The position numbers and the translations under genes were made by a program. From Candidatus Firestoneibacteriota bacterium (GTDB lineage: Bacteria; Oederibacteriota; JAAXVQ01), in the NCBI GenBank assembly GCA_013335425.1, contig JAAXVQ010000029.1:1-11854 (forward strand): a stretch of 11,854 nt of DNA, in the 5' to 3' direction. Shown here piece by piece: positions 2,695 through 11,854 of this stretch. Each line of letters begins with the position of its first letter. The stretch's first letter is position 1. The notes beneath the pieces are model-generated. The model saw only the letters and a list, made by a program, of their open reading frames with translations, did no database searches and was not told the DNA's origin.

Positions 2695-3630
2695 ATGACT
2701 GGGACAGCCAAAATTCATCTCCTGCAAGAAGTCTCTCTCGGATTTATTTTCCTGACTTTTTTTTCAACGGGTTTGGTCTCCGTCGTTGCCGCGGCAACGC
2801 CTACGCCGGTTGTCCCCACCTTGATTACCAATGGAGAGTTAACGGGCGCGGGCACTTACCCATCCGGGTGGTACGGCTGGCGGGATGATCATCATGACCC
2901 GGATGCGACGGTTTACCTGGGCGCCGCCGGAAATTCGTGGGTGGTTTGGGATGAGGCGGGCATCTACCAGGATGCTTTCACGGGTTTTTCAGCGGGAGAC
3001 CTGATTTATTTTGGCGCGTATTTGCTGACGCCCTCCGGCGACCGCCTGCAGGACGGCTTTGAATACGGCTATGTTGCCCTGGAGTTTTGGGACAGTTCCA
3101 ATAATCTGCTCTCGGCGGTAACCGCTTCTCCGGTGATTAATTCTTTAAGCTCGGCCGACACCTGGATTTTTTCCGGCGGCGTTGTGAACGTTCCGCCCAA
3201 CACCGACCACGTGAGAATTTTAATCCGCATGGGCAACGGCAATTTATCCGCGGGGAAATTCAATGCGGATCAGGCATTTATGCGCAACCTGGCCACTTAC
3301 CCTTTGGCGCCCACGGTTACGCCCACACCGACGGTTTCTGCCGAACCCACCGAGGTGCGCTTCGTTCCGGAACGTTATGGTGCGGCCCGGCCGAATCCCT
3401 TCATGCCCGGAAGAGGGCAGAAAACGTTTTTTCTGCCGGAGAGTGCGGCATCGCCTCGGCCGAGCATACGTATTGTGAACCTGCGCGGAGAAAAAGTCCG
3501 AGTCCTGGAAAACGCCCGGAGCTGGGACGGGCGCGATGATTCAGGGCGTCTCTGCGAGGGGGGGATTTATTTTTATCAGATTGAAACCGGCGCCAAGCCT
3601 GTTTCCGGCAGCGTGGTGCTGATTCGATGA
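2695..3630 (+). CDS. Secreted CBM-like protein with FlgD-type Ig tail
   Basis: This 311-residue protein has a hydrophobic signal peptide (about 1-34). A jelly-roll-like domain follows (about 43-198, beginning ITNGELTGAG and rich in Trp, Tyr and Gly), then a Thr-Pro linker (about 206-218). It ends in a domain resembling FlgD Ig-like or type IX secretion C-terminal domains (about 228-311), with RPNPFMPG, LRGEKVRVL, SWDGRDDSGR, GGIYFYQI and terminal VVLIR. The first domain is homologous to the N-terminal domain of the GH5 gene at 9813, sharing TNGELTG, GIxQD and YFGxYL, which suggests carbohydrate binding. I see no catalytic motif, so it is probably a surface or periplasmic glycan-binding protein. 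A strong GGAGGA (2685-2690) precedes the ATG. Its stop overlaps the histidine kinase start, implying a shared job in signalling. No promoter was found in the 47-base gap before it. The domain layout is seen; glycan binding and sorting are inferred. Confidence 0.8.
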   Translation: MTGTAKIHLLQEVSLGFIFLTFFSTGLVSVVAAATPTPVVPTLITNGELTGAGTYPSGWYGWRDDHHDPDATVYLGAAGNSWVVWDEAGIYQDAFTGFSAGDLIYFGAYLLTPSGDRLQDGFEYGYVALEFWDSSNNLLSAVTASPVINSLSSADTWIFSGGVVNVPPNTDHVRILIRMGNGNLSAGKFNADQAFMRNLATYPLAPTVTPTPTVSAEPTEVRFVPERYGAARPNPFMPGRGQKTFFLPESAASPRPSIRIVNLRGEKVRVLENARSWDGRDDSGRLCEGGIYFYQIETGAKPVSGSVVLIR

Positions 3631-4967
3631 CCGCTCAGCGGATCCCGGTACCCGACCGCCGTTGGTTGGGGAGAGGTTATCGATTTCTAGCCGGAGGGCT
3701 GGCGGCTGCGGGCATCATGCTGGCGGCGTTGGGCGCGATTCACGCCAACCTGCTTGAATTGGAAGCCACGCGGGTTATCGAGTATGGAAAATTGGCCGAG
3801 CAAATAGGCAAACTGGCGGCGAGTTACAGCGCCCTTAAGCAGTACGATCATCTTCTGGACCTGATGCAGCTGCTCACCCGGACCCCCGCCATCCGCTTCA
3901 TGGCGCTGGAAGTCAATGGCGCCAAAGTGCTCCAAGCCGGACGCGAAGCGATTGCCGGGCAGACAAAGCCTTGGCGCTCCGGAGGGAAGGCGATGTCCAT
4001 CGGCAGCGACCTGCTGTTTTGGATCCCCCTGGACCCGGGCGCTTCCCGGCTTCAGGAAAAATCGGGTTTGAGGATGTTGTTTTCCTTGGGTGACCTCAAG
4101 GAACGACGACGGAACATATTATGGATAAGCGGGTTAATCGCGCTTCTGCTTGCGGCCTTAACGGCTCTGCTGCAGACGTTGGATCAGACCCGGCGCCGCC
4201 TCAAGCAGCAAAACCAGGCTTTGTTGCAAACCCAGGAACAACTGCGCCGGGAAGAAGAGACCCGCTCTTTGATGGTTCGATACCTGGCGCACAATGCCAA
4301 TAATCATCTAAACGTGGTGGCCGTCCGGCTTGCCAATCTGCAGGCCAAACAGGCGGTCCGCCAACCTTCGGTGGGCCTGGAAAAAGATCTGGCGGTCATG
4401 GATGAAAACCAAAAAGCTGTCGGGTATTTAATCCGAAATTTGTATGATTATGATTTGTTGAAGCGCGGCGAGTTTCCCCTCGACTGCCGCCTGGAGGATT
4501 TGGCGGAATTGCTCCGACGCGGTGCGCGCAGCATTGAAACTTTGGCCGCCGAAAAACAAATCCGCGTTGTCTGCGGGACGTTTACCCCCCAATGGCTCAA
4601 GGTGGATGCCCGTTTGCTGGAGCAGGTTATCATGAACTTGCTGGTGAATGCCGTGCGTTATTCTCCGCCGGGGTCGACCGTGGACATCACGCTCGCGCCT
4701 GAGCCTGAACGCGTGGTGGTCGGCATACGCGATCAAGGACGCGGCATTGCGCCGGAAGATCGGGAACGGATTTTTGAACCTTTTGTCCGCTTGCAGACCC
4801 ATGGGCCCAAAGGCTCGGGATTGGGGTTGTCCAATGCCCGTCTGCTGCTTAAGCAGCTCGGGGGCGAGATTTGGGTGGCACAGAGCCGCCTGGGCGAAGG
4901 TTCAACTTTGGCTTTTTCCCTGCCCGCCCCTTTGACGGAAACGATCAGCGGAGGCCGCCTGCCATGA
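3627..4967 (+). CDS. Membrane sensor histidine kinase with atypical H-box
   Basis: This 446-residue protein autophosphorylates, or modulates phosphorylation, to control the response regulator encoded next. An Arg-rich cytoplasmic N-terminus leads to a first membrane segment (about 19-40), a periplasmic sensor region (about 41-163, no family recognised) and a second membrane segment (about 164-184). A Gln/Arg-rich coiled coil follows (about 186-214), with no clear HAMP. The H-box LAHNANNHL (220-228) aligns with the LAHEINNPL type, making H222 the phospho-acceptor, but the usual Glu/Asp after the His is Asn223. The ATPase domain is complete: N-box LEQVIMNLLVNAVRYSP (331-347), DQGRGI (369-374), FEPF (383-386) and GSGLGL (396-401). 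The start lies in an ATGA overlap with the preceding stop and has no strong Shine-Dalgarno, so translation is probably coupled. Kinase output may be weak, or phosphatase-biased, because of Asn223; that is inference. Confidence 0.93.
   Translation: MTAQRIPVPDRRWLGRGYRFLAGGLAAAGIMLAALGAIHANLLELEATRVIEYGKLAEQIGKLAASYSALKQYDHLLDLMQLLTRTPAIRFMALEVNGAKVLQAGREAIAGQTKPWRSGGKAMSIGSDLLFWIPLDPGASRLQEKSGLRMLFSLGDLKERRRNILWISGLIALLLAALTALLQTLDQTRRRLKQQNQALLQTQEQLRREEETRSLMVRYLAHNANNHLNVVAVRLANLQAKQAVRQPSVGLEKDLAVMDENQKAVGYLIRNLYDYDLLKRGEFPLDCRLEDLAELLRRGARSIETLAAEKQIRVVCGTFTPQWLKVDARLLEQVIMNLLVNAVRYSPPGSTVDITLAPEPERVVVGIRDQGRGIAPEDRERIFEPFVRLQTHGPKGSGLGLSNARLLLKQLGGEIWVAQSRLGEGSTLAFSLPAPLTETISGGRLP
4950..4954 (+). 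promoter_or_regulatory. Ribosome binding site that fixes the response regulator start
   Basis: GGAGG sits 9 bases upstream of ATG 4964, inside the last codons of the kinase gene. With the typical receiver N-terminus MKKILIVDDE it settles the start. The longer in-frame reading from 4871 would add residues encoded by kinase sequence. Confidence 0.75.
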
Positions 4968-6355
4968 AAAAAATTCTGATTGTGGACGATGAAAAGGAAT
5001 TTGCCGCCGCCTTTGCCGAGTTTTTGGAATTGCATGGTTATGCCGCGGCCTGGGCGCCCGAGGTTGGACGGGCCTTGGAGCAGGTGGATGCGTTTCAGCC
5101 GGATCTTGTGACTTTGGATTTGGAGCTCGGCGCCCAAGCTGATCAAAACGGCATTGATTTTCTAGGCGCTTTGCGCAAGAAACCGGCGTATAAAGACCTG
5201 CCGGTGCTGGTCATCAGCGGAACGGGGGGCACGCACGACTATTTTCAGGTCATGGAACTCGGCGCCGGGGATTACGTGATAAAGCCGATCGACTTCCGTC
5301 AAATTTTGGAAAAGATCGAAAGGTTGACGCCGGGTGTTTCGGGCCGGAAAATCCCGGCAGCCGGAGGCTGGGAAGAACGCCTGGTGGGAAAATCCAAGGT
5401 GATGCTGAATTTGGCCAGGACGATTTATCAAGCCGCCCAAGCCGGCAGCGACACCTTGATTTTGGGTGAAACCGGGACCGGTAAGGGCCTGGTGGCGAAA
5501 ACCTATCACCGTCTCAGTTCCCGGAAGACGGGGCCTTTTTACCGGATCGATTGCACCCGGATTCCTCCCAACCTTTTTGAAACTGAAATTTTCGGGTGCG
5601 CGCCCGGAGGGCATTCCCAGGCTTTTCAGGAAAAAAAAGGCATGATCGAGGAAGCCCCCCAGGGAATTATTTTCTTGGACGAAATCGGAGAAATGCCTCT
5701 CGAGCAGCAATCCAAGTGGTTGACGCTGCTGGAAACCAAACGGTATACGCGCGTGGGAGAAAATCGGGAACGGGAGCTCACCAGCATAATTTTGTCCGCC
5801 ACCAATTGCGACCTTTATGCCATGGTTCAGGCCGGCCGTTTCCGTAAAGATCTGTATTACCGTTTATGCAACACGATCATCCTCAACCCTCCTCTGCGGG
5901 ATCATGCTGAAGATCTGCCTGAGCTGACGGAGCATTTTATCCGGAAATACAACAGTGAACGCGGTACTCGGATTGAGGGCGCCGAACCGGAAGTGTTGGA
6001 AGGGTTTAAAACCCTGCCTTGGGAAGGCAACGTACGCCAGCTTATGCAGGTCATTGAGATCGGCTTAAAGCAGGCGCATTCACGGTTGACCTGGGCGGAC
6101 GTACGGGCGGCGTTGACCCCGCCGAGTCTCGGCGGGGAAACGGCGGGACGGGGGCCTAAGTCCCCAATACCCCCGGACATGCCCTATGCGGAATTCAAGG
6201 AAAAGGTTTTGCTGGCCCTCAAAAGGGATTTTTTCATTTACCATTTGGAAAAGCACCAATGGAACGTGACGCGGGCCGCTCAGGCCTTGGGGTTTGCCCA
6301 TCGCCAGCAACTGCGTCAATTTATGGAACAATTGCAAATTGAGAAGCCCAAATGA
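4964..6355 (+). CDS. NtrC-family response regulator with degenerate GAFTGA loop
   Basis: This 463-residue regulator has the classic three domains. The receiver (about 1-118) has acidic D8/D9, phospho-acceptor D52, S85 and K107. The AAA+ domain (about 138-385) has Walker A GETGTGKG (168-175), Walker B IIFLDE (235-240), sensor I ATN (279-281), arginine fingers R294 and R300, and sensor II R358. A Fis-type helix-turn-helix closes it (about 414-463, NVTRAAQALGF). ATP binding and hydrolysis look intact. In the L1 loop the stretch FGCAPGGHSQA stands where family members have FGHEKGAFTGA, so GAFTGA is replaced by GGHSQA (215-220). The Phe and Thr of GAFTGA contact sigma54, so direct sigma54 activation is doubtful. 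R. capsulatus NtrC and E. coli TyrR are known relatives that lack the motif and work with sigma70. ATGA overlaps at both ends place it in one unit with the kinase and the barrel fusion. Confidence 0.93.
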   Translation: MKKILIVDDEKEFAAAFAEFLELHGYAAAWAPEVGRALEQVDAFQPDLVTLDLELGAQADQNGIDFLGALRKKPAYKDLPVLVISGTGGTHDYFQVMELGAGDYVIKPIDFRQILEKIERLTPGVSGRKIPAAGGWEERLVGKSKVMLNLARTIYQAAQAGSDTLILGETGTGKGLVAKTYHRLSSRKTGPFYRIDCTRIPPNLFETEIFGCAPGGHSQAFQEKKGMIEEAPQGIIFLDEIGEMPLEQQSKWLTLLETKRYTRVGENRERELTSIILSATNCDLYAMVQAGRFRKDLYYRLCNTIILNPPLRDHAEDLPELTEHFIRKYNSERGTRIEGAEPEVLEGFKTLPWEGNVRQLMQVIEIGLKQAHSRLTWADVRAALTPPSLGGETAGRGPKSPIPPDMPYAEFKEKVLLALKRDFFIYHLEKHQWNVTRAAQALGFAHRQQLRQFMEQLQIEKPK

Positions 6356-8373
6356 AAAAAAGTTTCGGATGGAATTTTTTGTTTTTGCGATGGGGGAGCG
6401 CCTGCTTGGGATTGGCTGCCGCGCTGGCGCTTTGGGGAACCCCTGCCCCGGCGTATTTTCAGGAACCGGCCCCGGGTGTCCGGCCCAAAAGCATGGGGGA
6501 AGCGTTCACGGCGGTGGCCGATGACGTGAATGCCTTGGCCTACAATCCGGCGGGGTGTGCGCAACTGAGTGCTTGGGAAATCAGCGGCATGTATGCCGCG
6601 TTGTTTGCCGGGATGGATCCCGCGTTGTATACGGGCGAAATGGACCGTACCGGTTTCAACCTGGTTCAGGTGGCCGCGCCCTTGCCCGAAGTTCACGGCG
6701 GTCTGGGCTTGGCCTGGAGCCGGTTGTTTTCGGCGTTTTATCAGGAAAACGTCGCCGCGCTCGCCTACGGCCAAGCTTGGGGCCCGTTCGCCTTCGGGGT
6801 TGCGGCCAAAGTGCTGCAATGGGAGGTGGCTTCGACCGAGTACACCAACGATCCGGAACTTTTTCCCGCGCTGGCACGCCGGACCTGGACCATGGACGCG
6901 GGGTTGTTGGCATATCCTTGGAAAAATTTGCGGCTCGGCGCCGGCCTGCAAAACCTACTTCCCGCCGATGCCGGGCTTTTGGAGCGCGAAGAAATCCCGG
7001 CCGTCTACCGCTTGGGCGCCGCCTATCTGTTCCCGGCGCCTTTGCCTGGGCTGCAATCCCTCCAGGCTTCACTGGAAGGGGTTTGGCGTTTAAACCGGTG
7101 GGACTGCAAATTGGGGGTGGAAACGCTCTTGCGGGATCGCTGGCTGGCCGTACGCGCCGGAGTCAACCGCGAGGAAGCTAGTTGCGGTTTCGGGATAAGG
7201 ATACGCCGACCGGAGATGCCCCTGGCGATGACGTTGGATTATGCGTTCAGCTATCCTTTCGAGCTCCGGGCAACCGCCGGTTCTCACTGGGCGGGACTTT
7301 CCGTTTTCTGGGAACCTCCGGCTCCGCGAGGTCCCGCGCGACCGGCCTCCCCCACGGCTTCGGCTTTGGACACTCCGGCGGCGAAGGCCGCCACGACAAC
7401 CGCGGAAGCCGATTCGGCTTTGGTGCAGTCCGCCGCGTTTCAAGAATTCTTGGCGTTTAGGGAATTTGTGGCCCGGCACTCGGCCGTCACCGCCACGGCG
7501 GAAAACCAGACGTTTCCGGCAACGAATCCGGCTGCGCCGGCAAGGCCGCCCGCGATAGCCGGGACCGTTCCCGCAGACCGTCAAAAGCAAATCCTGGTAG
7601 GGTTTGAACAAATCCTTTTATCCGATGCGGCCAATCCCCGCGAAGCCCGCGAGCGGGTCGCAGCCTTTCAAAAATATATCGAGCAAAAAACCGGTATTGC
7701 CCTTGTCGGCAGGGCGTTTGACAATTATGAGGAATTGGACCGCGCTTTTCGGCAGGGAGAGCTGGATGCGGTCGTTTCCTCACAAGGGTTGTTTAAACTC
7801 CTGTATCGGGAAAACTTGGCCGAACCGTTGCTGACCGCGCAAGTTAGGGGGCGGGATTTCCAATCCGCCTGCCTGCTGGTCCGCGACTCTGGGGAAATTC
7901 AGGAGTTGGGCCAACTGCAGGGCAAACGTCTGGGCTATATCGCCATGGAGGATTTGGAAGGACTAAACCGGCATTTTTTCAATGACAACCCCAAGTTCAA
8001 ACCCGAAATATTCTTTAAGGAACTTAAAAAGATCCAACAAGCCCGCGTGGGCGTGCTGGCGTTGATGGTGCAAGACGTGGATGTGCTGGTGGGCTATGAT
8101 TACATGTTGAAAGTGGCCGCGGACGTCTCCCGGGAGCAGAACCTCCCCAATCCCATTCGTTGTTTGGCCCAGGTTTCGTCAATCCCCAACACGCCGATTT
8201 TTGCCCGCAAAACCCTGCCGCCGGAAAAACGCGCCGCCGTGTCCCGCTTGGAAACCGCCCTGCTGCAAGCCGACCGCGATGAAGCCGGGAAAGCCTTTCT
8301 GACATTTTTCCACTTTGATTGTTTTTCGAAATTCAAGGAGAAGAAGTACCGGGCATATTTTCAAAAAGAATAA
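6352..8373 (+). CDS. PorV/UPF0164-like outer-membrane barrel fused to PhnD-type binding protein
   Basis: This 673-residue protein starts with a signal peptide (APA|YF, cleavage near 34). Residues about 43-320 resemble PorV/UPF0164 barrels: SMGEAFTAVADDVNALAYNP near the start, alternating strands, and an aromatic end LSVFW (316-320) like a beta-barrel terminal strand. A Pro/Ala/Thr-rich linker follows (about 321-410). Residues about 411-673 resemble the phosphonate-type (PhnD/Phosphonate-bd) periplasmic binding fold: a start ILVGFEQI, EELDRAFRQGELDAVVSSQG, LQGKRLGYI, and IPNTPIFARKTLPPE before the last helices. Both ends of a barrel face the periplasm, so the binding domain would be tethered there, where it could meet the kinase sensor region. 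No ABC transporter genes are present, so a signalling or capture role is as likely as uptake. The ATG overlaps the regulator stop (ATGA). Domain calls rest on motif and pattern recognition; the ligand is unknown. Confidence 0.85.
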   Translation: MKKSFGWNFLFLRWGSACLGLAAALALWGTPAPAYFQEPAPGVRPKSMGEAFTAVADDVNALAYNPAGCAQLSAWEISGMYAALFAGMDPALYTGEMDRTGFNLVQVAAPLPEVHGGLGLAWSRLFSAFYQENVAALAYGQAWGPFAFGVAAKVLQWEVASTEYTNDPELFPALARRTWTMDAGLLAYPWKNLRLGAGLQNLLPADAGLLEREEIPAVYRLGAAYLFPAPLPGLQSLQASLEGVWRLNRWDCKLGVETLLRDRWLAVRAGVNREEASCGFGIRIRRPEMPLAMTLDYAFSYPFELRATAGSHWAGLSVFWEPPAPRGPARPASPTASALDTPAAKAATTTAEADSALVQSAAFQEFLAFREFVARHSAVTATAENQTFPATNPAAPARPPAIAGTVPADRQKQILVGFEQILLSDAANPREARERVAAFQKYIEQKTGIALVGRAFDNYEELDRAFRQGELDAVVSSQGLFKLLYRENLAEPLLTAQVRGRDFQSACLLVRDSGEIQELGQLQGKRLGYIAMEDLEGLNRHFFNDNPKFKPEIFFKELKKIQQARVGVLALMVQDVDVLVGYDYMLKVAADVSREQNLPNPIRCLAQVSSIPNTPIFARKTLPPEKRAAVSRLETALLQADRDEAGKAFLTFFHFDCFSKFKEKKYRAYFQKE

Positions 8374-8691: not shown

Positions 8692-8707
8692 TGGCATGAA
8701 ATTTGCG
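8692..8707 (+). promoter_or_regulatory. Sigma54 (-24/-12) promoter for the barrel-GH5 unit
   Basis: TGGCATGAAATTTGCG matches the RpoN consensus TGGCAYRN4TTGCW at every defined base except the last. GG at 8693-8694 and GC at 8705-8706 have the exact 10-base spacing, which predicts a start point near 8718 and a leader of about 113 bases. The gene direction and the upstream palindrome fit. Confidence 0.75.
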
Positions 8708-8735: not shown

Positions 8736-8819
8736 TAACATGAGATCGGATAGTTTGCGTTGGCATGCCTGCAAAAGCGTTATGTCGGGGAAAAAACAGG
8801 GAAGTCCATTTAAACCTTC

Positions 8820-8826
8820 AGGAGGG
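8820..8826 (+). promoter_or_regulatory. Ribosome binding site that fixes the second barrel start
   Basis: AGGAGGG stands 4 bases before ATG 8831. It favours this start, which opens directly into a signal peptide, over the in-frame ATG at 8765. That start would put 22 polar residues in front of the signal sequence. Confidence 0.85.
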
Positions 8827-8830
8827 AAGC

Positions 8831-9769
8831 ATGAACCGGGGAAAAGGGAAGTTGGCTTTTTTAATTTTACTATTGGGCGCGATAGGGTTGGCAGGCGGCC
8901 CGGCTTGGGCGGCACAAAAGGGTGCCGCTGAATTAACTATGGAACTGGGGCCGCGTCCGGTGGGTATGGGCGGTGCTTTTGTGGCCTTGGCCGATGACCA
9001 AAACGCGACCACCTGGAACCCGGCAGGTTTGGCGCAAATGCAGGGATATGGTCTGAGTGTACTGCATAGTTTTTATGTACAGGATATTTCTTGGGAACAT
9101 GCGGCCTTTGGGCAAGCGTTGGGGAACAAGTCGGGCTGGGGCGTTCAAGTGCTCTACTTAAATTATGGGAGCATGGACAAATATCTGGAAGTCGACGGCC
9201 AACCGGAAAAAGCCGGTACGTTTTCTCCGCATGCGGTTTTGGGGGCCTTGGGATACGGCCGGGAAGTCATGGCCAACCTGGCAGCGGGTGCGACGGTTAA
9301 ATTGCTTTCCCAAAACATTGACGGGCAAACCTATAACGGCGGGGCGCTGGATGCGGGTTTGCAGTTTGACCAGGCGCTTCCCGGGCTTAAGCTCGGTGCC
9401 GCGCTTTACAATTTGGGCCCAAAATTGGCGGAGGTTGATTTGCCCGCGGCGGTGCAGGTGGGGGGCGTTTATGCCTTGCCTTGGAGGGTGCAAGCGGCCG
9501 ATACCTGGCAAATGCTTTTGGACGTCAAATTGCCGTTTGCGGATTTCGCCGGCGGCACGGCGCGTTTGGGGACGGAGTACGGCTTCGGTCCTTACCTGGC
9601 CGTGCGGGCCGGTTATCAGGCCCGGCAAGATGTGGGGCTGGGGAAGGTCAACGGGTTGGCTTTCGGCGCCAGCCTAAAGCTCTCGCTTTTCCAATTGGAT
9701 TATGCGCTCGCTTCCCTGGGTGATCTGGGGATGAGCCATCAGGTCGCACTCGTGGTTGCCTGGAAGTAG
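8831..9769 (+). CDS. PorV/UPF0164-like outer-membrane barrel, stand-alone
   Basis: This 312-residue protein begins with a clear signal peptide (Lys/Arg-rich start, Leu/Ile core, AWA|AQ cleavage near 27). The family N-terminal signature GMGGAFVALADDQNATTWNP lies at about 45-64. The rest alternates short polar turns and amphipathic strands and ends in VALVVAWK, as expected for an outer-membrane barrel of the PorV/PorQ or UPF0164 type. It is homologous to the N-terminal half of the fusion at 6352 but has no binding-protein domain. It is first in the sigma54-preceded unit and is followed 43 bases later by the secreted GH5 enzyme. It may therefore move or anchor that enzyme, or pass its products. 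Known relatives include PorV, which handles type IX secretion substrates, and uncharacterised spirochaete proteins. The fold is well supported; transport versus anchoring is open. Confidence 0.85.
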   Translation: MNRGKGKLAFLILLLGAIGLAGGPAWAAQKGAAELTMELGPRPVGMGGAFVALADDQNATTWNPAGLAQMQGYGLSVLHSFYVQDISWEHAAFGQALGNKSGWGVQVLYLNYGSMDKYLEVDGQPEKAGTFSPHAVLGALGYGREVMANLAAGATVKLLSQNIDGQTYNGGALDAGLQFDQALPGLKLGAALYNLGPKLAEVDLPAAVQVGGVYALPWRVQAADTWQMLLDVKLPFADFAGGTARLGTEYGFGPYLAVRAGYQARQDVGLGKVNGLAFGASLKLSLFQLDYALASLGDLGMSHQVALVVAWK

Positions 9770-9812: not shown

Positions 9813-11854
9813 ATGAATTTTCTGTCATGGAGAAATTTGGGCATGATCATGTTGCTGGGCGCGGCGGTTGCGCTGCAAGGCCTGGCGTTGCCGGCGCGGG
9901 CTGCTGCCGTGAATTTGTTGACCAACGGGGAGCTGACGGGCAGCGGCAGCGCGCCGACGGGATGGATGCAGTGGGGAGAGGCCAATCATGATGCGGAGAC
10001 GGCGCTGAGGCGCGGATCTTCGGGCAATGCCTGGAAATTTTGGTATGAAGGCGGAATTTTCCAGGATGTCACCGGTGGTTTTACCGTCGGCGCCAAAGTC
10101 TATTTCGGCGGTTATCTGTATCAAGCTTCCTCCGACGCCATGCGCAACGGCAATAAAAACGGCCGGGTGGAGGTTGAATTCCGCACTTCCTCGGATGTCC
10201 TAATTTCCACAGTGGCGGCCCAGCCGATCCTCAATGCCTCGGCGCCCAAAGATTTATGGGTTTTGGCGGCAATGTCGGCCACGGTTCCGGCCAATACCGG
10301 GAAGATCAGGCTGGTGATTAAAATCGACAGCGCTTCTTCCGGGGCGGGTATGTTTTATGCCGATGACGCTTTTTTGGAAACCGGCGGAAGTTTGACCGCC
10401 GGCAATTATTACCGCCGGGTGAACGCGGACATCAAAGCCCCGAACGGGAATCAAAATTTCTTCATCCGCGGCATGAACCTGAGCGGTTGGATTTATCCGG
10501 AAGCGTACATGCTTCAAATTCCCGGCGGGACCTACAGCCAGATTACCGCGGCGGTTAAAAACATCATGGGTTCGCAAAGCGACAGTTTTTGGAGCACCTA
10601 CCAGGCCAATCAACTCAGCATCGGCGATTTGGCGAATTTTAAAAGCAAAGGGTTCAACACGGTCCGTGTGCCGTTTCATTATCGGACGGTCTGTCCGCAG
10701 GATAATCTGGGAGTTTTGGATTTTCAAAAACTGGACCAGATAACCGATTGGTGCGAGGCTCAAGGGCTGGGGGTGATTTTGGATATGCATGCCTCCCCCG
10801 GGGGGCAATCCTCGGACAGCACGTCGGACCCGAATTTTGACCCGGTCTCGGGGCAGCGGGTGGCCGGGCTTTGGACCTCAACCGCCGGCGCGCAAAACCA
10901 ACTGCGCACCGTGGAAATTTGGAAAAACCTGGCCCGCCATTTTCGGGACCGTACGGTTATTGTCGGGTACGAGCTGCTCAATGAGCCGGAATTGCCGGTC
11001 GGCACGGCCAACAGCGCGCTGTGGACTTTTTACCAAAATGCCATCAGCGCCATACGCACTTCCGACCCGTTCCACTTGATCATGGTGGAAGGCGATCGGG
11101 AAGTCAATGGCCGCTATACCTATGATTTGGAAGGATTTGACCGTTGGGACGACAACCTGTCCTTGGCCTTCCATTATTATTGGCAGCCTTTGGCCGCTTC
11201 CTACCTCCAGGTTTTTTTAGATGTCCGCAGCGCCAAGAATCTTCCCCTGGTGATGACCGAATCCGGCGAGAATTCCAATCCGTGGAGTTTTGACGCAGTC
11301 AAATTTTTTGAAAATCCGGGCAACAATGTCGGGTGGTGCTGGTGGGGATGGAAAAAAGTGGACAACATCGCCGTGGCCGAGTCCGCGCCCATGACCCCGG
11401 ACTACCGGTGGACCGCAGAGCATTTTTATGATGCTTCTTTCCCGGACATCACCCGCGGACGTTTGGGACTCAACCAAATGGCGGAAAATCTCAAGACCGT
11501 CAATTGCGCCCACGACGCCAACTATTATTTGACCTTGTTTGATTCGGGGAGCGTGTTTAATACGGCCAGACCCTATAAATCCATTGCCTTGCCCGGCGTA
11601 ATACACGCCTCTAATTACGACGAGGGCAATCAAGGCACAGGTTCTTTTGATTCTGATTATCAAGCCGAGACTTATCCGCCGGCCTGGAACCATGGGAGTT
11701 CCGGCCGCAATGACGGCGTGGATATCACTCGCGCGGATGACTCGTGCGATACGAACAGCAACGGTTATTACCTCAGTTGGCTGGCAGCCGGCGAATGGGT
11801 GCGTTTTTCGTCTGTGCAGGTGGCGCAGGCGGGCAACTATTACCTTTCCTACCG
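9813..11854 (+). CDS. Secreted GH5 glycoside hydrolase with CBM-like and CBM6 domains, partial
   Basis: The gene starts at ATG 9813 behind GGAGGGG (9802-9808) and is open to the right edge, giving 680 residues with the C-terminus missing. Order: signal peptide (about 1-31, ARAAA); CBM-like domain (35-189) homologous to that of the gene at 2695; GH5 (beta/alpha)8 catalytic domain (about 205-545); then a CBM6-like start (about 590 on), with IALPGVIHASNYDEGNQG, DGVDITRADD and LAAGEWVRF. GH5 residues visible are R285 (TVRVPF), H326 (DMHASPGG), N390 with acid/base E391 (LLNEPE), H454 and Y456 (FHYYWQ), nucleophile E483 (TESGE), and the Trp cluster WCWWGW (508-513). All key residues are present, so it should be active, by the retaining mechanism known for the family, on a beta-glucan or related polysaccharide. 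The subfamily and exact substrate cannot be told. It is cotranscribed with the barrel at 8831 in all likelihood. Confidence 0.93.
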   Translation, partial: MNFLSWRNLGMIMLLGAAVALQGLALPARAAAVNLLTNGELTGSGSAPTGWMQWGEANHDAETALRRGSSGNAWKFWYEGGIFQDVTGGFTVGAKVYFGGYLYQASSDAMRNGNKNGRVEVEFRTSSDVLISTVAAQPILNASAPKDLWVLAAMSATVPANTGKIRLVIKIDSASSGAGMFYADDAFLETGGSLTAGNYYRRVNADIKAPNGNQNFFIRGMNLSGWIYPEAYMLQIPGGTYSQITAAVKNIMGSQSDSFWSTYQANQLSIGDLANFKSKGFNTVRVPFHYRTVCPQDNLGVLDFQKLDQITDWCEAQGLGVILDMHASPGGQSSDSTSDPNFDPVSGQRVAGLWTSTAGAQNQLRTVEIWKNLARHFRDRTVIVGYELLNEPELPVGTANSALWTFYQNAISAIRTSDPFHLIMVEGDREVNGRYTYDLEGFDRWDDNLSLAFHYYWQPLAASYLQVFLDVRSAKNLPLVMTESGENSNPWSFDAVKFFENPGNNVGWCWWGWKKVDNIAVAESAPMTPDYRWTAEHFYDASFPDITRGRLGLNQMAENLKTVNCAHDANYYLTLFDSGSVFNTARPYKSIALPGVIHASNYDEGNQGTGSFDSDYQAETYPPAWNHGSSGRNDGVDITRADDSCDTNSNGYYLSWLAAGEWVRFSSVQVAQAGNYYLSY

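Follow-up and report, generated by a model that had tools for sequence, protein, structure and literature searches.

A PorV-like barrel fused to an AioX-like sensor domain beside a histidine kinase: a candidate trans-envelope signalling module in phylum FCPU426

Introduction

How could an event at the outer surface of a bacterium be reported to a histidine kinase in the inner membrane? We know of few routes that carry such a signal, and the question is raised by a single gene on contig JAAXVQ010000029.1 (assembly GCA_013335425.1), of which the whole 11,854-nucleotide stretch, here called the window, was analyzed. This gene (6352-8373, plus strand) is one continuous frame of 673 aa that places an outer-membrane barrel and a binding-protein domain in one chain, next to a two-component system. 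The original prediction, made from the sequence without database searches, described a PorV/UPF0164-type barrel joined to a two-lobed, phosphonate-type binding protein that might sample solutes passing through the barrel. It overlooked a co-encoded secreted protein (2695-3630) with a tail of the type IX secretion system (T9SS) type, a feature that connects the barrel with the shuttles of this system. The reading that we favor, and hold to be probable, is a three-component system like AioXSR in which a shuttle-type barrel with a dedicated surface protein serves as the anchor of the sensor, X, the whole forming a trans-envelope signalling module. In searches of the open-access full-text literature we recognized no paper on a fusion of a barrel with a PF12974 domain.

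The fusion gene is the last of four genes that run in the same direction with overlapping ends; the stop of the secreted protein, hereafter the cargo, at 3630 overlaps the start of the kinase at 3627. The regulator start at 4967 (MKKILIVDDE) was picked by us, the mechanical frame opening at 4871. The features of the cluster are as follows.

2695..3630, plus strand: secreted surface protein (cargo), 311 aa, with an N-terminal region of ~190 aa, a Pro/Thr-rich linker and a T9SS-type C-terminal tail
3376..3627, plus strand: C-terminal sorting-type tail of the cargo, 84 aa, from an alignment with six relatives
3627..4967, plus strand: histidine kinase, 446 aa, HATPase_c E 9e-27, with a periplasmic region
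4967..6355, plus strand: response regulator, receiver Response_reg E 6e-21, AAA+ of NtrC/AtoC type (Sigma54_activat E 5e-52), weak C-terminal helix-turn-helix
6352..8373, plus strand: fusion protein, 673 aa, start overlapping the regulator stop by 4 bases
6454..7317, plus strand: barrel half, residues 35-322, 14 predicted strands
7318..7566, plus strand: linker, residues 323-405, predicted helix 351-384, mostly pLDDT <50
7567..8370, plus strand: AioX/ArrX-type binding-protein domain, residues 406-673

Fold and Topology of the Fusion Protein

Both halves of the predicted structure give high-Z fold matches, and the claim that one chain combines a barrel of this kind with a two-lobed binding protein is borne out. 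The N-terminal half is modelled as a 14-strand outer-membrane barrel of the PorV/UPF0164 type, within the FadL superfamily. It scores 21.9 bits on UPF0164 when taken alone and 19.4 bits within the whole protein (cut-off 21.4), the fusion reaches 40 on PorV_fam (cut-off 90), and a sequence search with the barrel half against solved-structure sequences returned no match. The C-terminal half meets the curated score of PF12974 and has the two-lobed fold. By sequence profile and by fold alike, its closest solved relatives are ArrX and AioX, and its score on the PhnD equivalog model is 36 bits, far under the cut-off of 261. The even strand number, together with sister barrels that carry OmpA domains in the equal position, supports a binding-protein domain that faces the periplasm, as had been proposed. 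Sister barrels bear OmpA or TPR domains where the fusion has its PF12974 domain; PorV-like barrels are a platform with exchangeable periplasmic ends.

Linkage to a Histidine Kinase

The gene counts given here come from a survey of 59 stretches (the window, 18 from its genome and 40 from relatives) that were chosen for matching the window protein rather than as whole genomes, and the survey is therefore biased towards barrels resembling that of the window. Frames were called by a simple script that keeps the longest non-overlapping ones, and kinases and regulators were identified by phmmer with the window's own as queries (E 1e-5). The stretches hold 62 barrels of the family, 44 of them with a C-terminal extension of at least 100 aa. 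Sorted by BLAST, these extensions are TPR-like (12), OmpA-like (10), PF12974 (9), an unnamed group (6) and small groups (7), where "TPR-like" and "OmpA-like" are names of BLAST clusters that Pfam confirms for OmpA in two of two cases and for TPR in one of two (L069 yes, L042 no).

Linkage was counted over the 61 barrels of at least 150 aa, a limit below which one 120-aa barrel (L014) falls, and a gene run was defined by gaps of less than 350 bases. A kinase homologous to that of the window lies no more than two genes away in the same run for all nine PF12974 barrels and for none of the 52 others (Fisher p 6e-11). The predicted link to the two-component system holds. An AAA+ regulator is present as well for eight of the nine and again for none of the 52, among which is counted a barrel cut by a contig end (L073) whose regulator lies two genes off, past a 700-base gap. 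The order is kinase-regulator-fusion in the window, L058 and L063, fusion-kinase-regulator in L009, L064, L065, L070 and L074, and fusion-kinase in L068. Twelve module kinases align, as judged by eye, across one common periplasmic region.

The Cargo Protein and Type IX Secretion

Seven of the nine fusion modules encode a tail protein in the cluster: cargo with the common tail is encoded immediately before the module in the window, L058, L063, L064, L065, L068 and L074, and its gene overlaps the start of its neighbor in the window, L063, L064 and L068. The tail of the window is 45-57% identical to those of the six other modules, and the alignment has 88 columns, 21 of them invariant. Against the type A model TIGR04183 (cut-off 23), the tails of L058, L063, L064 and the more distant gene of L070 score over the cut-off, those of the window, L065 and L068 score under it, and L074 is not reported. 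The TIGR04183 score exceeds that of the type B model TIGR04131 in all six of the ten tails for which both are reported.

A profile made from seven tails finds one immediately upstream of 31 of 58 barrels and of 5 of 311 other genes (p 5e-24), once three barrels and 55 other genes with no upstream neighbor in view are set aside. Three of the five exceptions are kinase genes (window, L058 and L063) located between the cargo gene and the barrel gene, and the other two are tandem tail genes in L065; in the window, cargo and barrel belong to one gene run, with the cargo as the third gene before the barrel. Barrel distances and tail distances correlate with r 0.88 over 34 pairs (the 31 immediate ones and three modules with cargo before the kinase), a value that 0 of 2,999 permutations reached, also when permuting within genomes. 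A barrel clade of 22 rows gives r 0.85 (19 pairs, 0 of 2,999). Judged by these sequence distances, the covariation is a link between subfamilies. Gene linkage and subfamily-level covariation together suggest that the barrel may act as a shuttle for the C-terminal domains of cargo. The order also has a translocon: full-length SprA/Sov genes over the cut-off of 200 occur at L184:3162-9572 (G001, 263.9 bits) and L185:1989-8390 (G004, 228.5 bits), in two FCPU426 genomes that both carry fusions and lie outside Bacteroidota.

The Sensor Domain Pocket and Its Possible Ligand

What the X domain might bind was approached through the known pocket. PMC5908839 gives the oxyanion pocket of AioX as Y88, C106, Y131, S161, S163, H192 and D210, five of the seven being common to PhnD. 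Across the nine fusions, one of 63 pocket cells is retained in our alignment, namely Tyr88, and in the window protein only; the Tyr131 position is Gln in seven of nine fusions and the Asp210 position is Tyr in four of nine. The alignment is a distant one in which a shift by one column would give L058 a Cys, and its ArrX reference row reads Ala at the Tyr131 position (by its title the entry is a Y138A mutant; another ArrX entry has Tyr). Because the pocket residues are all but lost, sensing of arsenite, phosphate or phosphonate via the known contacts is unlikely on present alignments. The original suggestion that phosphonate-like solutes are sampled through the barrel accordingly finds no support, the nearest solved relatives being sensors. 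The fusions widen the AioX-like sensing group past members with the arsenic pocket. As to what is sensed instead, the cargo (2713-3285) and a GH5 protein of the window (9813-10379) have a common N-terminal region of ~190 aa (37% identity over 191 aa, E 1e-40) in which Pfam names nothing, and because of this region we would guess at a polysaccharide surface.

Distribution, Unfused Forms and Evolution

The fusion was met repeatedly within a single order of FCPU426, a candidate phylum that corresponds to the Goldbacteria clade; cellulose degradation has been reported for this clade (PMC7031533). A protein search (5.8 billion; the top 7,993 candidates by word sharing were scored) returned nine sequences: the window protein, six more fusions (P0003-P0008, one of them a second copy in the window's genome), the barrel-OmpA protein P0009 and one distant barrel. 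Two more protein-database searches gave barrels whose C-terminal domains differ, plus a single weak match to a PF12974 protein that stands alone. In the scan of genome contigs, a single-protein query gave no relative and an alignment query did. Frames with both halves occur in relatives G001 (same genus) and G004, G006 and G007 (same order). With the sensor domain as query (E <1e-30), matches are confined to six of the eight genomes of the order (G000, G001, G003, G004, G006 and G007) among 45 genomes of the phylum; 384 genomes were scored for only two candidates each, a depth that does not establish absence of the fusion outside the order. A related domain lies inside a 592-aa frame (G304:C1:1110520-1111242) of a one-contig genome outside the phylum.

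The same order also has X as a separate protein, followed by a homologous kinase and regulator, in three operons.

L051:5714-10912: unfused X-S-R operon, TolC-like gene directly before X
L052:6828-12107: unfused X-S-R operon, TolC-like gene directly before X
L047:3-4439: unfused X-S-R operon, truncated frame before X that reads by eye as TolC-like

The TolC-like genes of L051 and L052 match PF02321 with E 3e-37 and 2e-32. These separate operons make X-S-R a module in its own right, of which the barrel fusion is one form. Six distant stand-alone PF12974-like proteins (L087, L088, L090, L095, L098 and L103) have no kinase within their stretches of 2.8-3.7 kb. In L075 (2875-5283) and L077 (221-2674), an X domain stands behind a long N-terminal region that looks beta-sandwich-like by eye, and in the last 541 aa of L075, the part that was scanned, Pfam names nothing other than PF12974. 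A barrel (L073:3466-4614) and an AioX-like domain (L076:4200-5036) of G007, each cut at a contig end, are possibly one gene.

On a midpoint-rooted barrel tree, a supported clade of 15 barrels (99/97) unites the nine fusions with three TPR-like barrels, two OmpA-like ones and one that is cut off, a grouping from which it follows that the periplasmic end was exchanged among closely related barrels. The PF12974-type barrels need four label changes on this tree, of which starred branches force only one, and the sensor-domain tree is poorly resolved, with 5 of 18 inner branches starred. A single origin of the fusion was considered on this basis and is not established, nor are several origins.

Proposed Mechanism and Known Systems

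To the computed observations (domains, folds, gene linkage, tail-barrel pairing at the level of subfamilies, a translocon in the order and loss of the oxyanion pocket), the favored module adds what we infer: binding of the tail by the barrel, contact between X and the kinase, which way the signal travels and what sets it off. The PorV-like barrel would hold the C-terminal tail of the co-encoded surface protein in the outer membrane in the manner of a type IX shuttle, and the AioX/ArrX-like domain would hang from it on the linker into the periplasm, so that the outer membrane would bear the X of X-S-R. A small ligand, or the loading or engagement of the surface protein, would change X; the histidine kinase nearby would receive this change through its periplasmic region and phosphorylate the AAA+ response regulator. 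A narrower version, which we offer more tentatively, makes the module an outside-in receptor in which the T9SS-exported surface protein, plugged in its own shuttle barrel, would be the extracellular sensor and the AioX-like domain the periplasmic transmitter that engages the kinase. If this is true, one cargo-barrel platform would serve either anchoring (OmpA/TPR) or signalling, and the fusion would be an outer-membrane link of the sort that is missing from PorA-PorXY signalling. The authors of PMC7712824 hold that other factors should mediate between PorA at the surface and PorY in the inner membrane. One gene may encode such a mediator here, with a shuttle-fold barrel and a kinase-linked AioX-like domain, clustered with cargo and kinase.

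The closest known relatives of the module are AioXSR, ArrXSR and ArxXSR (PMC5908839), which likewise place a PF12974-type periplasmic sensor beside a histidine kinase and supply the closest solved folds and sequences. AioR and ArxR are AAA+ regulators of the AtoC type, from which ArrR differs (PMC5908839), and this type is also found in the fusion modules; X, S and R occur together in eight of the nine, the other having no R in view. X of AioXSR is a separate protein, whereas here it is fused to an outer-membrane barrel (and separate in L047, L051 and L052). Further differences are that the pocket is lost, that a secreted cargo gene accompanies the fusion and that the scans made name no arsenic gene in the window.

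A second comparison is with PorA-PorXY-SigP (PMC7712824). There PorA, a cargo that interacts with PorV through a system in which it carries a C-terminal sorting domain, acts ahead of a kinase in the inner membrane and an extracytoplasmic function (ECF) sigma factor. The link across the outer membrane is unknown there, and the barrel-sensor fusion is a candidate link here. ECF sigma genes lie near four of the nine fusion modules (L009, L063, L064 and L074) and two of the three unfused ones (L047 and L051), a tally of six candidates picked by eye, all six positive, rather than a systematic count; they recall SigP and prove nothing. The response regulators are of different families in the two systems, and PorX carries a PglZ domain.

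A third is with type B cargo of Bacteroidota. According to PMC9143113, a PorP-like barrel holds such cargo and also binds PorE, a periplasmic protein with TPR and OmpA-like domains; two other papers state that genes for type B substrates often adjoin those of their shuttles (PMC12618676) and that type A tails contact extracellular loops of PorV (PMC10994853). The set of cargo, PorP/SprF and PorE likewise has a dedicated cargo beside a shuttle barrel and a periplasmic partner on the inner side of that barrel. In FCPU426, by contrast, the periplasmic part is fused to the barrel, the fusion group has a sensor domain and a kinase rather than a wall anchor, and the tails reported on both models score higher on type A. 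At L010, L039 and L069, OmpA/TPR-tailed barrels (Pfam-checked) stand directly behind a tail-bearing secreted protein, an arrangement that is by analogy the fused counterpart of the cargo-PorP-PorE set.

Weighing the Explanations

Several observations weigh against the favored module. On the cargo side, the window tail stays under the curated cut-offs (CHU_C E 2.6e-4, also under its cut-off; TIGR04183 16.7 bits), and the predicted cargo model is too poor for use (mean pLDDT 39). L009 has no tail protein in view, and the nearest tail gene of L070 is ~3.3 kb upstream, past three frames of at least 100 aa. The barrel-tail correlation is not significant in the 15-row clade that holds all fusions (r 0.24, 12 pairs, 305 of 2,999) and is absent over the seven PF12974-type pairs (r -0.32). 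SprA is represented in the window's genome only by a contig-end piece, 64% identical. On the signalling side, the L068 module has no response regulator in view, the related X domains of L075 and L077 have no kinase in view, and no ligand is known for the fusion domain. The GAFTGA loop is a hallmark of sigma-54 activators; it is replaced in the window regulator, and of 12 module regulators one has the exact loop and the rest a degenerate one. Activation of sigma-54 is doubtful on account of these sequences, and the AAA+ regulators of the modules may act otherwise than on sigma-54; rpoN was found in the window's genome.

Of the other explanations, the one that survives best, unlikely as we judge it, is plain small-molecule sensing by an X-S-R system. 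The domain would bind a soluble periplasmic ligand and tell the kinase as AioX does, with the barrel as an anchor or entry pore and the cargo linkage incidental. AioX and ArrX are indeed the nearest folds, and the unfused X-S-R operons of the order do without this barrel, two of them beside TolC-like genes. The recurrence of the cargo gene in seven of nine clusters, with its overlapping gene starts at four of them, is hard to square with an incidental neighbor, and the AioX pocket residues are lost.

Far less probable is a domain that serves as a structural spacer or a kinase-independent part, perhaps like OmpA or TPR, next to a kinase that regulates expression of cargo and barrel without contact. 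That no other barrel among the 52 has such a kinase alongside, and that the three unfused X proteins of the order do adjoin one, argues against it. It draws on the OmpA or TPR domains of barrels in the same clade, on binding-site residues that are not retained and on the X domains of L075 and L077.

The weakest is a transport relay, very improbable in our view, in which the barrel (a FadL-type fold can be a channel) would admit a solute and the tethered binding protein would pass it to an ABC transporter, the kinase being a regulating neighbor: PF12974 is named after ABC substrate-binding proteins, and PhnD and PtxB, which bind phosphonate and phosphite, have the family and fold of the C-terminal half, but a search for PhnE-type permeases, the only permeases searched, gave two matches in the window's genome, both under the cut-off (at 84% completeness, the assembly could lack a permease), PF12974 occurs at only three places in that genome, the PhnD equivalog is far from reached, the oxyanion pocket is lost and the kinase linkage is complete. 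For PhnE-type permeases over this cut-off, the absence of an ABC transporter noted originally for the window holds in the assembled genome too.

Other Features of the Window

The genes that flank the cluster are listed below.

110-1858: upstream frame, presumably a formate-tetrahydrofolate ligase
1862-2647: DUF34/NIF3 protein, upstream of the cluster
8765..9769, plus strand: second, unfused barrel of PorV/PorQ type, 334 aa, NF033709 139.8 bits (cut-off 90)
9813..11852, plus strand: GH5 cellulase-family protein, PF00150 E 1e-25, running off the window

Searches for RNA families and tRNAs found none in the window. A search for sigma-54 promoters gave five matches in the window against 7.0 expected, which is no signal; one of the five (8692-8707) precedes the second barrel. 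This second barrel is 28% identical to the fused one (E 2e-10).

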